Source: Coralliovum pocilloporae (GTDB lineage Bacteria > Pseudomonadota > Alphaproteobacteria > Rhizobiales > Cohaesibacteraceae). From it: a stretch of DNA of 64,000 nucleotides. The DNA is taken from the NCBI RefSeq assembly GCF_030845175.1, contig NZ_CP132542.1:1472607-1536606 (forward strand). The letters run 5' to 3'. Of this stretch, positions 10,270 to 20,418 are shown in pieces (positions within the stretch are counted from its first letter, which is position 1; the number at the start of each line of letters is the position of its first letter). The notes below the pieces were generated by a model. It was not told the origin of the DNA and made no database searches. It saw only the letters and a program-made list of their open reading frames with translations. The position numbers and the translations under genes were made by a program.

Positions 10270-11136
10270 CTATCCCTGAAGCCGCTTTGACAGATCTTCA
10301 AGCTGGTCCAGGCTCTTGTACTTGATCTGGACAGAACCGGTCTCGTTATCCTTGTGGCTGATACTGACTTTCATGCCAAGGGCATCTGACAAAGCCTTCT
10401 CAAGGGCCTTGGTGTCGGCATCTTTCTCCTTCTTCGGAGCCTTCGGTTTGGCTTCCGGCAAACCTTCCTGTCCCAGACGTTCCGCCTCGCGCACAGACAG
10501 GCCATGCTCGACAATCTGCTCAGCAAGCGCTGCAGGCTCATCAGACGTAATCAGGGCCCTGGCATGCCCAGCGGTCAAAAGACCCTCTGACAGGTAGTCC
10601 TGAACGCTGTTAGGCAGCTTCAGAAGTCGCAGGGTATTCGCCACATGACTGCGGCTCTTGGCAATCACATCCGCCAGGTCCTGCTGAGTATACTGGAATT
10701 CCTCCATAAGCTGCTGATAACCAAGAGCTTCTTCCAGCGGATTAAGGTCTGCACGCTGGACATTCTCGATGATCGCGATTTCAAGAGCTTCCTTGTCGGA
10801 TACATCGTGAATCAGAACAGGAACTTCATGAAGTCCGGCGCGCTGGGCCGCGCGCCAACGGCGTTCACCGGCAATCAGCTCGTAGGAATCCGTCTCATCC
10901 GCAACCGGACGCACAAGAATTGGCTGGACGATGCCCTTCTCCTTGATGGAGTTTGTCAGATCCGTCAGATCATCTTCAGCAAAGGTCTTGCGCGGGTTAC
11001 GCGGGTTGGCGCGGACAAATTCGATTGGAATACGCCGCTGGGTCCGGGACCGCTCAATCGCTTCCGCCTCCGAATCGATATCGCCCATCAATGCAGCCAG
11101 GCCACGCCCCAACCGTTTCCGAGACTCATCCGCCAT
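10270..11136 (-). CDS. parB: chromosome partitioning protein ParB
   Basis: A 288-residue ParB/Spo0J that spreads from parS sites as a CTP-dependent clamp and drives origin segregation with ParA. It has NPRNPRKTF (box I), ELIAGERRWRAAQRAGL (box II, CTP binding), a helix-turn-helix around QQDLADVIAKSRSHVANTLRLL, and a C-terminal dimerisation domain ending QIKYKSLDQLEDL. The N-terminal KRLGRGLAALMGD is the usual ParA-contact segment. It lies downstream of parA; three parS sites are found 1.5-3.5 kb upstream of it in the window. Confidence 0.97.
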   Translation of the reverse strand: MADESRKRLGRGLAALMGDIDSEAEAIERSRTQRRIPIEFVRANPRNPRKTFAEDDLTDLTNSIKEKGIVQPILVRPVADETDSYELIAGERRWRAAQRAGLHEVPVLIHDVSDKEALEIAIIENVQRADLNPLEEALGYQQLMEEFQYTQQDLADVIAKSRSHVANTLRLLKLPNSVQDYLSEGLLTAGHARALITSDEPAALAEQIVEHGLSVREAERLGQEGLPEAKPKAPKKEKDADTKALEKALSDALGMKVSISHKDNETGSVQIKYKSLDQLEDLSKRLQG

Positions 11137-11212: not shown

Positions 11213-12040
11213 CTAAGCAGCTCTAAGTGTCTTCTCACGCTGAATGACTTCAGACGCCAGCTTCAAATAAGCCTGGCTGCCTGTACACTTCAGATCATAG
11301 AGCAGAGCAGGTTTTCCATAAGACGGAGCCTCAGATACCCGCACATTGCGGGGAATAACCGTCTCATAGACCTTATCGCCCATATATTCTTTCACATCGG
11401 CAACAACCTGATTGGCCAGATTGTTCCGTCCATCATACATGGTCAGCACAATGCCATGGATGTCCAGTCCCGGGTTCAGGGACTTTTTCACCTGCTCCAC
11501 GGTCTGGAGAAGCTGGCTCAGACCCTCAAGCGCAAAGAACTCACACTGCAGAGGAACCAGAATAGAGTTCGCAGCTGTAAGAGAATTGATCGTCAGCAGA
11601 TTGAAACTCGGCGGGCAATCCACCAGCACATAGCTGAAATCCGGGATTGTTTCATCAGCTCCCACGCGCTCTGCATGGGCTGAAATGGCACTCCGCAAAC
11701 GGTGGGCCCGGTCTGATTCAGAAGCAATTTCAAGCTCCAGGCCCAGAAGATCCATGGTTGATGGCGCAATATAGAGACGCGGAACCGCTGTTTCCCGGCA
11801 GGCTTCAGCCAGAGAGTTTTCACCGGCCAGCACCTCGTAGGTCGAGATCCCACGATCTTTGCGGCCAACACCCAACCCGGTTGAAGCATTGCCTTGTGGA
11901 TCAAGGTCCACAATCAGCACCTTTTCGCCAATAGCGGCAAGCGCGGTACCAAGATTAATCGCTGTTGTCGTCTTGCCCACACCACCCTTCTGGTTGGCAA
12001 CGGCAATAACGCGCGGCTGTTTCTGAGAGGGCGTTGTCAT
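11213..12040 (-). CDS. parA: chromosome partitioning ATPase ParA
   Basis: A 275-residue MinD/ParA ATPase that forms nucleoid-bound dimers and moves ParB-parS complexes. It has the deviant Walker A motif NQKGGVGKTTTAINLG near residues 17-32, LIVDLDPQGNAS (Walker A'), and VDCPPSFNLLTINSL (Walker B). Full length for chromosomal ParA. It is followed by parB and preceded by rsmG on the same strand with 13 bases between, so rsmG-parA-parB are likely one transcript with mnmG upstream. Confidence 0.97.
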   Translation of the reverse strand: MTTPSQKQPRVIAVANQKGGVGKTTTAINLGTALAAIGEKVLIVDLDPQGNASTGLGVGRKDRGISTYEVLAGENSLAEACRETAVPRLYIAPSTMDLLGLELEIASESDRAHRLRSAISAHAERVGADETIPDFSYVLVDCPPSFNLLTINSLTAANSILVPLQCEFFALEGLSQLLQTVEQVKKSLNPGLDIHGIVLTMYDGRNNLANQVVADVKEYMGDKVYETVIPRNVRVSEAPSYGKPALLYDLKCTGSQAYLKLASEVIQREKTLRAA

Positions 12041-14639: not shown

Positions 14640-14655
14640 TGATTCACGTGAAACA
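14640..14655. promoter_or_regulatory. parS centromere site (one mismatch)
   Basis: TGATTCACGTGAAACA differs from the parS consensus only at position 3. It lies in the 116-base gap between mnmE and mnmG, 42 bases (start to start, four helical turns) from the perfect site at 14682. Confidence 0.88.
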
Positions 14656-14681: not shown

Positions 14682-14697
14682 TGTTTCACGTGAAACA
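14682..14697. promoter_or_regulatory. parS centromere site (perfect)
   Basis: TGTTTCACGTGAAACA is identical to the 16-base parS consensus known from Bacillus and used by Caulobacter-type ParB. It sits four bases beyond the mnmE stop codon. With parAB eight kilobases or less from the predicted oriC this marks the chromosomal segregation centre. Confidence 0.95.
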
Positions 14698-18103: not shown

Positions 18104-19147
18104 TTAACGCTTGAAACCACGTACGCGAGCAACAAGCTGCTCAACATGAGCGACTGGCGCGTTTGGCGTAATACCGTGACCGAGATTGAAAATAAACGGA
18201 CCGGACCCAAGATCTTCAAGAATCCGATCAACAGCTTCATCAAGTGCCCTGCCCCCGGCAATCAGCTTCTGTGGATCAAGATTGCCCTGAACGGCGCAAT
18301 GTTTCTGGAGATTGTCCCGGGCCCAGCCGGTTGGAACCGACCAGTCAAGACCGACAGCATTTACACCGCTATCCCGCGCCACCTCTTCATAAAGAGGTCC
18401 AACGCCTTTCGGGAATGCAACAATCTTTGCATCGGGATGATGAGCGCGAACACCGCTGACAATGCGCTTCAGAGGTTCAAAGCACCATCTGCGGAATTGT
18501 TCCTCATCAAGAGAGCCAGCCCAGGTATCAAAAATCTGAACTGCATCAGCACCTGCATCAATCTGGGCAGAGAGATACCGGATTGACGAGTCAACCAGAC
18601 AATCAACCAGTATCTGGAAACTGTCAGGATCAGTAAGAGCCATCTGTCGTGCGGCAGCCTGGTCTGGTGAGCCTCGACCACCGATCATATAGGTCGCTAC
18701 CGTCCAGGGAGCGCCACAGAAGCCGAACAGCGTCGTTTCAGCTGGAAGACCATCCCGGACACGAGAGACCGTCTCCAGCACCGGTTCAAGGTGCTTCAGT
18801 ACATTGTCAGGTTTCAGGGTCTGGATACCGGCTGCATCCAATGGCTCAAGGATAGGACCCACTCCTTCCTCAAACCGGACATCCTGTCCGAGAGCGTCTG
18901 GAATAACCAGAATGTCTGAAAACAAAATTGAGACATCAAAACCAAAGCGACGAATTGGCTGGAGTGTCACTTCGGTAGCCAGTTCCGGTGTGTAACAGAG
19001 ATCAAGGAATCCGTTGGCTTGCGCTCTGGTTGCCCGATATTCCGGCAGATAGCGCCCTGCCTGTCTCATCATCCACATTGGAGGAGATGCGAAGCTCTGT
19101 CCCTCGAGAACCTGAAGAGCTTTCCGGTTGGCTTTGGGATCAGTCAC
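18104..19147 (-). CDS. hemE: uroporphyrinogen decarboxylase
   Basis: A 347-residue TIM-barrel enzyme that decarboxylates uroporphyrinogen III to coproporphyrinogen III. Signatures: [17 protein letters not shown] near the N-terminus, with the Arg clamp, and [16 protein letters not shown]. The start is ambiguous: GTG at 19147 has AGGAG ten bases upstream, while GTG at 19168 has GGGGA closer in and would add seven residues. In Caulobacter and relatives hemE borders the replication origin, and the region upstream here shows origin features. Confidence 0.95.
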
Positions 19148-19298
19148 GATGTGAGAACTCCTATTCACAAATCCCCTAATAAAGGATTCTTTAATATTTA
19201 GATTTTGTTTCTTATTAGCAGTGGATTATCCGTATTCTCATCCATCCACAATCCCGCTATTGATATTCCGTATCAATCAGCCGGTGCCCAATCCTTGA

Positions 19299-19317
19299 TG
19301 TGGATCATTGTGGATTG
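19299..19317 (+). promoter_or_regulatory. tandem DnaA boxes
   Basis: TGTGGATCA at 19299-19307 is the exact reverse complement of the Caulobacter G-box TGATCCACA. A second, weaker box TGTGGATTG follows at 19309-19317, ten bases later, so both lie on one face of the helix. They would bind the DnaA initiator. Confidence 0.78.
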
Positions 19318-19430
19318 ATTGCAAATGAAAAATTTCCATTGATAAATGAGCTCGTTATGGCCTCTCGAAGCTGATTTGACCGGAACAAGTCTGTTATGAT
19401 TATTCTGGACAACGTCGTGATCGCGAAATG

Positions 19431-19445
19431 TTTACCACTTGTTAA
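19431..19445 (+). promoter_or_regulatory. CtrA-type box (one mismatch)
   Basis: TTTA, seven bases, then TTAA (followed by C) matches the TTAA-N7-TTAA recognition pattern at seven of eight defined positions. It lies in the predicted origin, where CtrA represses initiation in Caulobacter. Confidence 0.6.
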
Positions 19446-19493
19446 CTTTTTCGATCTGGAGCTTTGCACACTTGGATGAGCTGTTGATGAATT

Positions 19494-19508
19494 TTAAGGT
19501 TTTGTTAA
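19494..19508 (+). promoter_or_regulatory. CtrA box (perfect)
   Basis: TTAAGGTTTTGTTAA fits TTAA-N7-TTAA exactly and is followed by C, as in the longer consensus. It is 63 bases (start to start) from the weaker box at 19431 and 82 bases before the ppsR start, so it could also control ppsR transcription. Confidence 0.72.
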
Positions 19509-19575
19509 CGATTTGGGCAGCCTCTCCAAAACGGGCCAACTTATCGGAATCCATCCACAGCCATCAGGATATATT

Positions 19576-20418
19576 GTGAAAAACCGAACCACCTACTTTC
19601 ATCTTCACATGATTTCAGACGCGACGGGCGAGACGCTGATTGCCGTGGGTCGCGCAGCTGCGGCGCAATATGTCTCTTCTGCAGCGGTGGAGCATGTTTA
19701 TCCGTTGGTTCGCAAAATGGAGCAGCTTGATGACATTCTCCGGTCCATTGAGGATGCGCCGGGGATTGTTCTCTATACCCTCCTCGCCCCTGATCTGATT
19801 GATCGGCTTGAGAGGTTCTGCCGGTCCCTGGGTGTGCCGAGCGTGAATATTCTTGATCCAGTCATGACAGTCTTTCAATCCTATCTGGGATCCGCATCGT
19901 CTGGCCGTGCCGGTGCCCAGCATGCACTGAATTCCGAGTATTTCCGCCGGATAGAGGCCCTGAATTTCACCATTGCCCATGATGATGGTCAGATGACCCA
20001 GGATCTGGATGAAGCAGATATTGTTCTTGCGGGTATCAGTCGGACCTCAAAAACACCCACAAGCATGTATCTGGCAAACAGGGGGATCAAGACGGCAAAC
20101 GTTCCGATTGTGCCCGGAATCCCCATACCAAAAGAGCTGGAAATCGCAAAAAACCCCCTTGTTATTGGGCTTGTTGCGTCTCCGGAACGTCTGGTTCAGA
20201 TCCGGCAGAACCGGATGTTGGGTCTGAACGCCGACGCACTCGATTCCGGATATACAGACAAGGCAGCTATTGCAAAAGAAGTGGTTCAAACCCGGAAAAT
20301 GTGCGCTAAACATGGATGGGAGGTTCTGGATGTTACCCGGCGGTCGATTGAAGAAACCGCTGCGGCCATTCTATCCCTCTATCAGGCCCATCGGGAAAAG
20401 AATCGGAATCCGGATTAA
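19576..20418 (+). CDS. ppsR: PEP synthase/PPDK regulatory kinase-phosphorylase (DUF299)
   Basis: A 280-residue bifunctional Ser/Thr kinase and pyrophosphorylase that switches pyruvate-phosphate dikinase or PEP synthase off and on. The hallmark N-terminus is [14 protein letters not shown], and the nucleotide loop is [21 protein letters not shown] at 19576 is favoured over the upstream in-frame start at 19513, because AGGA lies six bases ahead and because the longer form would place 21 unrelated residues over origin DNA. It is the first gene right of oriC (RP001-type position). It abuts maf with stop and start overlapping in TAATG. Confidence 0.93.

Follow-up and report, generated by a model that had tools for sequence, protein, structure and literature searches.

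A predicted chromosome replication origin between hemE and ppsR in Coralliovum pocilloporae carries conserved CtrA-type sites

Where does replication of the Coralliovum pocilloporae chromosome begin, and does the cell-cycle regulator CtrA act there directly? The genome is one closed contig of 3,918,007 bases (3.918 Mb). We analysed a stretch of 64,000 nucleotides of it (chromosome positions 1,472,607-1,536,606; "the window"), and feature positions below count from the first base of this window unless the chromosome is named. Within the window, hemE on the − strand and ppsR on the + strand are separated by a gap of 428 bases (19148-19575), which a first-pass annotation had read as the chromosome origin. 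That reading is supported by a cluster of DnaA boxes, by a GC-skew minimum at 19294 together with the skew of the chromosome, and by sequence blocks conserved in relatives, and we consider it highly probable that the gap functions as the origin of chromosome replication. The place is ordinary: it is the one expected from alphaproteobacterial precedent, and this is very likely an origin of a known kind. The main point of the finding is not the place of the origin but the CtrA-type sites within it. Judging from these sites and from analogy with characterized origins, we give direct CtrA control of initiation at this origin a probability of roughly 0.6.

The gap has a GC content of 39.7%, compared with 0.49 to 0.58 per 2-kb stretch of the window. 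On one side lies hemE, encoding uroporphyrinogen decarboxylase (TIGR01464, 401.9 bits, cut-off 302.95), whose longest open reading frame spans 18104-19168 on the − strand; a gap that begins at 19148 implies a GTG start at 19147 instead. On the other side lies ppsR (19576-20418, + strand), the COG1806/DUF299 gene for a kinase-pyrophosphorylase (PF03618; NF003742, 336.7 bits, cut-off 225), so that the gap occupies the position of hemE-linked alphaproteobacterial origins. The flanking genes had been described as all pointing outward. To the left this is true of eight genes (hemE, hemJ, rho, mnmE, mnmG, rsmG, parA and parB). To the right it is true of five (ppsR, maf, aroE, coaE and a dnaQ-like exonuclease gene), after which come secB and fxsA, both pointing inward. 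The proximity of parABS was correctly noted: parA (11213-12040, − strand; AAA_31/ParA-type ATPase) and parB (10270-11136, − strand; ParB_N, HTH_ParB and ParB_C domains) lie 7-9 kb to the left and reach to within 7.1 and 8.0 kb of the gap. An exact parS, TGTTTCACGTGAAACA, is found at 14682-14697, and two further copies, at 14640 and 12654, carry one mismatch each. Elsewhere on the chromosome, 1.08 Mb of sampled stretches yielded no parS at zero or one mismatch. The genome's only dnaA match does not adjoin the gap; it lies at chromosome positions 1551482-1551970, 59 kb to the right, where the skew is positive.

Two CtrA-type sites are present on the + strand of the ppsR-side half of the gap: (i) site A, TTTACCACTTGTTAAC (19431-19446), which has one mismatch to TTAA-N7-TTAAC, and (ii) site C, TTAAGGTTTTGTTAAC (19494-19509), which matches this pattern exactly. 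Both had been overlooked by the first-pass annotation, as had the conserved DnaA-type box AGTGGATTA discussed below. At least one exact site was reached in 5 of 2000 shuffles of the gap, and the four strand-hits at up to one mismatch compare with a shuffle mean of 0.12, none of the 2000 shuffles attaining this number. Such a close pair of CtrA-type sites (within 428 bases) is not unique to the gap: the 1.144 Mb scanned contain pairs in five further stretches. The genome encodes CtrA (NF045991, 428.8 bits, cut-off 350), residues 1-118 of which match the CtrA of structure 4qpj with an E-value of 6.5e-70. It also encodes GcrA and a protein carrying the RAMA domain found in CcrM, identified by that domain alone; matches to GANTC, the CcrM-type methylation motif, stand in the gap at 19185-19189 and 19547-19551.

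We compared the gap among 20 genomes of the family, the source genome included, at least 17 of which belong to one genus. Site A is present at up to one mismatch in 19 of the 20, one genome being without any, and seven of its nine half-site columns show no variation among the 20, compared with a mean of 0.574 over the gap (mean pairwise column identity in a hemE-side alignment of the 20 genomes). An exact site occurs at about the same place as site C in nine of the 20, with homology across genomes judged by eye where the alignment is off by three columns. A further CtrA-type site, which we call site B, follows site A by ~20 bases in 17 of the 20 family genomes (~290-345 bases from hemE in the relatives) and is absent from the source genome. 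Judged by sequence, the sites in the gap are conserved and fit CtrA.

CtrA sites at an origin might nevertheless serve transcription. The gap doubles as a divergent promoter region, and CtrA, as a transcription factor, has sites elsewhere in this genome (27 exact strand-hits genome-wide, some of them one place counted on both strands, compared with 12 for a reversed control pattern). Sites A and C could therefore govern hemE or ppsR within a genuine origin and leave replication alone. The family genomes bear on this. All 20 genomes searched contain hemE, whereas a ppsR match was obtained in nine and none in 11, and in those 11 no ppsR remnant was detected at an E-value of 10 in the ~1.5 kb upstream of hemE. 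Thus ppsR has been lost beside the origin in 11 of the 20; maf is the next gene there, ~610-835 bases from the hemE match, and all 11 genomes keep the CtrA sites. That the sites persist after ppsR loss argues against their serving ppsR transcription alone. As for hemE, sites A and C lie ~260-340 bases from its start, which is far for a promoter site; they may still repress hemE from a distance. Overall, we regard a purely transcriptional role as unlikely, though far from negligible.

The spacing of the two half-sites provided a control for chance. For spacers of 5, 6, 7, 8 and 9 bases, the numbers of exact sites were 0, 3, 27, 1 and 0 in the 20 family genomes; 1, 2, 21, 1 and 0 in 83 genomes from 41 other families of the order; and 0, 2, 3, 0 and 0 in a class sample of 68 genomes of other orders (65 families, in not all of which need hemE flank the origin). 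Shuffles gave N7 expectations of 0.30, 0.40 and 0.17 for these three sets. When spacers from N3 to N12 were considered, the highest exact count other than N7 was five in the family and two in the other families. At one mismatch the family has 66 N7 sites compared with 35 N6 sites, each in 19 genomes, and the 41 other families have 55 compared with 19. Exact N7 sites were found in 14 of the 41 other families, with a patchy distribution: among the 83 genomes of these families, 45 lack any site at up to one mismatch (the sample of the order comprised 199 genomes from at least 52 families). By its sequence pattern, the N7 excess fits the CtrA geometry and is strong in this order, weak outside it and patchy. 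It is very improbable that the sites arose by chance in a gap rich in A and T and in T-runs, or that they merely reflect shared descent: the gap is indeed AT-rich, the family genomes are related and one-mismatch N6 sites are also common among them, but the exact counts single out N7 both in the family and in the 41 other families, far above the shuffles, and the half-site columns are much better conserved than the rest of the gap.

For the gap as origin, we examined DnaA boxes. Four ATCCACA-type boxes are present in the gap when both strands are counted; the shuffle mean is 0.11, and none of 2000 dinucleotide shuffles reached four. In the 1.144 Mb made up of the window and 54 further stretches of the chromosome there are 210 occurrences of ATCCACA, and four fall within 428 bases at this place only, as two overlapping clusters, one of which includes a box at 19071, within hemE. 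The boxes listed by the first-pass annotation are all there: an exact Caulobacter-type G-box, TGATCCACA, on the − strand at 19299-19307 (the + strand reads TGTGGATCA); a second box in the same orientation, CAATCCACA, at 19309-19317, ten bases on when measured from start to start; and two copies of CCATCCACA on the + strand, at 19242-19250 and, adjoining ppsR, at 19551-19559. The weight it had placed on the G-box was misplaced, however. The tandem pair is private to the source genome, since in the alignment none of the other 19 has anything similar at its place, and TGTGGATCA alone is not special, with 58 strand-hits genome-wide of which one is inside the gap. We therefore rejected the G-box as the defining element of the origin. 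In the 19 other family genomes no TCCACA was found between hemE and ppsR or within the first 500 bases; it occurs farther out, at 533-568 bases, in six of the 11 genomes without ppsR.

Conservation points to another part of the gap. The most conserved nine-base stretch in the alignment of the 20 family genomes is AGTGGATTA (19220-19228; identity 0.91), a DnaA-type box on the − strand whose GTGGAT is present in 20 of 20. The second is TTGTTTCTT (19205-19213; 0.905) and the third listed is CTTGTTAAC (19438-19446; 0.874). The first two together represent a T-rich tract abutting the DnaA-type box: the tract is AT-rich, T-rich on the + strand, spans 19179-19219 with TTTTGTTTCTTATTAGC at its right end, and is the likely unwinding region. 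Within 260 bases of hemE, a T-rich 20-mer followed by GTGGAT was found in all 20 family genomes, in 28 of the 83 genomes from elsewhere in the order, which represent 17 of the 41 families, and in three of the 68 from other orders; its reverse complement, taken as a control, gave 0 of 20, 2 of 83 and 2 of 68. The conserved features of this origin are thus the T-rich tract, the GTGGAT box and the CtrA sites, not the G-box pair.

The BUS consists of a DnaA box, a spacer and DnaA-trios; in the account of its rule given in PMC8287927, at least three trios with a middle A (3'-GAT-5') lie within 16 bases of a DnaA box. Read by eye leftwards from 19218, the trios here are GAT, TAT and then TCT, which makes two in a row. 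The two ATCCACA boxes at 19242-19250 and 19551-19559 correspond to CCCACA in many relatives: the former is CCCACA-type in most aligned relatives (identity 0.836), and the latter is CCCACA- or CACACA-type in many. TCCCC-type sequence is frequent in relatives and recalls the Caulobacter W-box, given as TCCCCA in the motif description of PMC4285127. The choice of DnaA box may therefore drift within the family. For IHF, the gap holds one-mismatch matches to the consensus only.

From the computed place, boxes, skew, conservation and presence of ctrA, we infer a course of DnaA opening, CtrA binding and repression. As is general for oriC, DnaA would nucleate at the conserved box at 19220-19228 and neighbouring boxes, spread towards hemE over the neighbouring T-rich tract, and open that tract. 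Assembly of the DnaA complex would be aided by the box at 19551 and by the two private ones at 19299-19317. Two forks would then depart from the gap in opposite directions, and the nearby parABS would separate the origin copies. In non-replicating cells CtrA, probably phosphorylated, would occupy sites A and C, both nearer to ppsR than to hemE, and repress initiation, as it does at the Caulobacter origin. For Caulobacter, exclusion of DnaA by CtrA is put forward in PMC4468827 as the simplest mechanism. In the source gap the CtrA sites are neither near nor over the G-boxes (exact G-box at 19299-19307, nearest CtrA site from 19431), and without such an overlap exclusion of DnaA from the G-boxes by CtrA is unlikely. 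To repress, CtrA would need to hinder the box at 19551, or to spread or loop over the ppsR-side half.

How does this arrangement compare with known origins? The origins of Caulobacter crescentus and R. prowazekii are placed between hemE and the COG1806 gene in the comparison of PMC1914354. The Caulobacter origin (Cori) has parABS nearby, as the source gap does. A G-box TGATCCACA and CtrA sites of the TTAA-N7-TTAA type are likewise common to both (Cori motifs as listed in PMC4285127). Cori differs in that, as PMC4468827 outlines it, five high-affinity CtrA sites are present and two G-boxes lie near or over CtrA sites, whereas the source gap has two CtrA-type sites apart from a single exact G-box, and its conserved DnaA-type box is AGTGGATTA beside the T-rich tract. 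The Rickettsiales origins of Rickettsia and Wolbachia resemble it in being flanked by hemE with predicted CtrA and DnaA sites (as treated in PMC1914354); they belong to another order of intracellular bacteria, and in Wolbachia COG1253 forms the other flank. In Hyphomonas neptunium a CtrA ChIP-seq peak adjoins ori, according to the binding results in PMC7200025; this is measured binding at one site in another lineage, whereas the source gap offers sequence matches.

Sinorhizobium meliloti and Brucella abortus probably belong to the same order as the source organism; the nearest named ppsR loci come from MAGs labelled Rhizobiaceae group and Rhodobiaceae. The S. meliloti ori is described in PMC4433202 as free of CtrA motifs and not bound by CtrA, and a citation in PMC2877005 has B. 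abortus CtrA not binding ori. A literature search that was thin on subscription journals and preprints turned up no description of CtrA sites at an origin from this order. It is possible, and we propose it tentatively at somewhat less than even odds, that direct CtrA gating of the origin is an old and widespread trait of the Rhizobiales/Hyphomicrobiales, retained here and in many further families and lost from the rhizobia and brucellae that serve as models. If true, the contrast between Caulobacter and the rhizobia reflects the choice of studied species. CtrA gating in this order is the part that specialists would not expect, and it is likely enough to be worth testing; the N7-specific excess at hemE-linked gaps, with exact sites in 14 of 41 other families, makes its gain and loss directly testable.

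Strand asymmetry was used to locate the origin on the chromosome. In the window, the cumulative GC skew reaches its minimum at 19294, inside the gap, and a two-segment fit has its best change-point at the same base; the extreme of the cumulative AT skew falls at 18954, in hemE. The chromosome was sampled in 54 stretches in all (about 28% of it), of which 40 stretches of 20 kb formed a coarse set. In this set the skew was negative in 16 of 16 stretches from base 1 to 1.47 Mb and positive in 19 of 19 from 1.55 to 3.32 Mb, so that the GC-skew check proposed in the first-pass annotation, run here in part, places a sign change at the gap. A second change was found near the antipode (3.451 Mb), where finer stretches gave a skew of ~0 at 3.32-3.38 Mb and a clearly negative one from ~3.385 Mb. 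That replication instead starts nearby, at dnaA or parAB, with the gap as a DnaA-regulated promoter region only, is very improbable: skew generally resolves kilobases rather than bases and the AT-skew extreme lies in hemE, but dnaA, which we rejected as the origin, lies within a region of positive skew 59 kb to the right, the side from hemE to parB is already strongly negative with the GC-skew minimum in the gap, and the interval between hemE and COG1806 is where PMC1914354 places the origins of Caulobacter and R. prowazekii.

The remaining five of the 40 stretches were negative (from 3.40, 3.50 and 3.60 Mb) or positive (from 3.70 and 3.80 Mb). The latter belong to a segment at ~3.69-3.87 Mb of the chromosome where the skew is mostly positive within an otherwise negative replichore. 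Its sign is unexplained by a simple picture of two replichores and counts against the origin reading; the segment is possibly an inversion or an acquired one. In seven of seven closed relatives, the strong negative skew of the hemE side (-0.06 to -0.14) ends at hemE and is near zero beyond (-0.06 to +0.07). In five of these relatives the local minimum of the cumulative skew lies at most 2.4 kb from the hemE start; in the other two it sits at the stretch's far edge.

A proteobacterial dif pattern had no match at up to three mismatches in the whole genome. A shorter dif pattern gave three matches at three mismatches, and many at four, in the window and the sampled stretches. One of these three, a dif-like near-palindrome, lies at ~3,385,710 on the chromosome, where the skew turns; it carries little weight.
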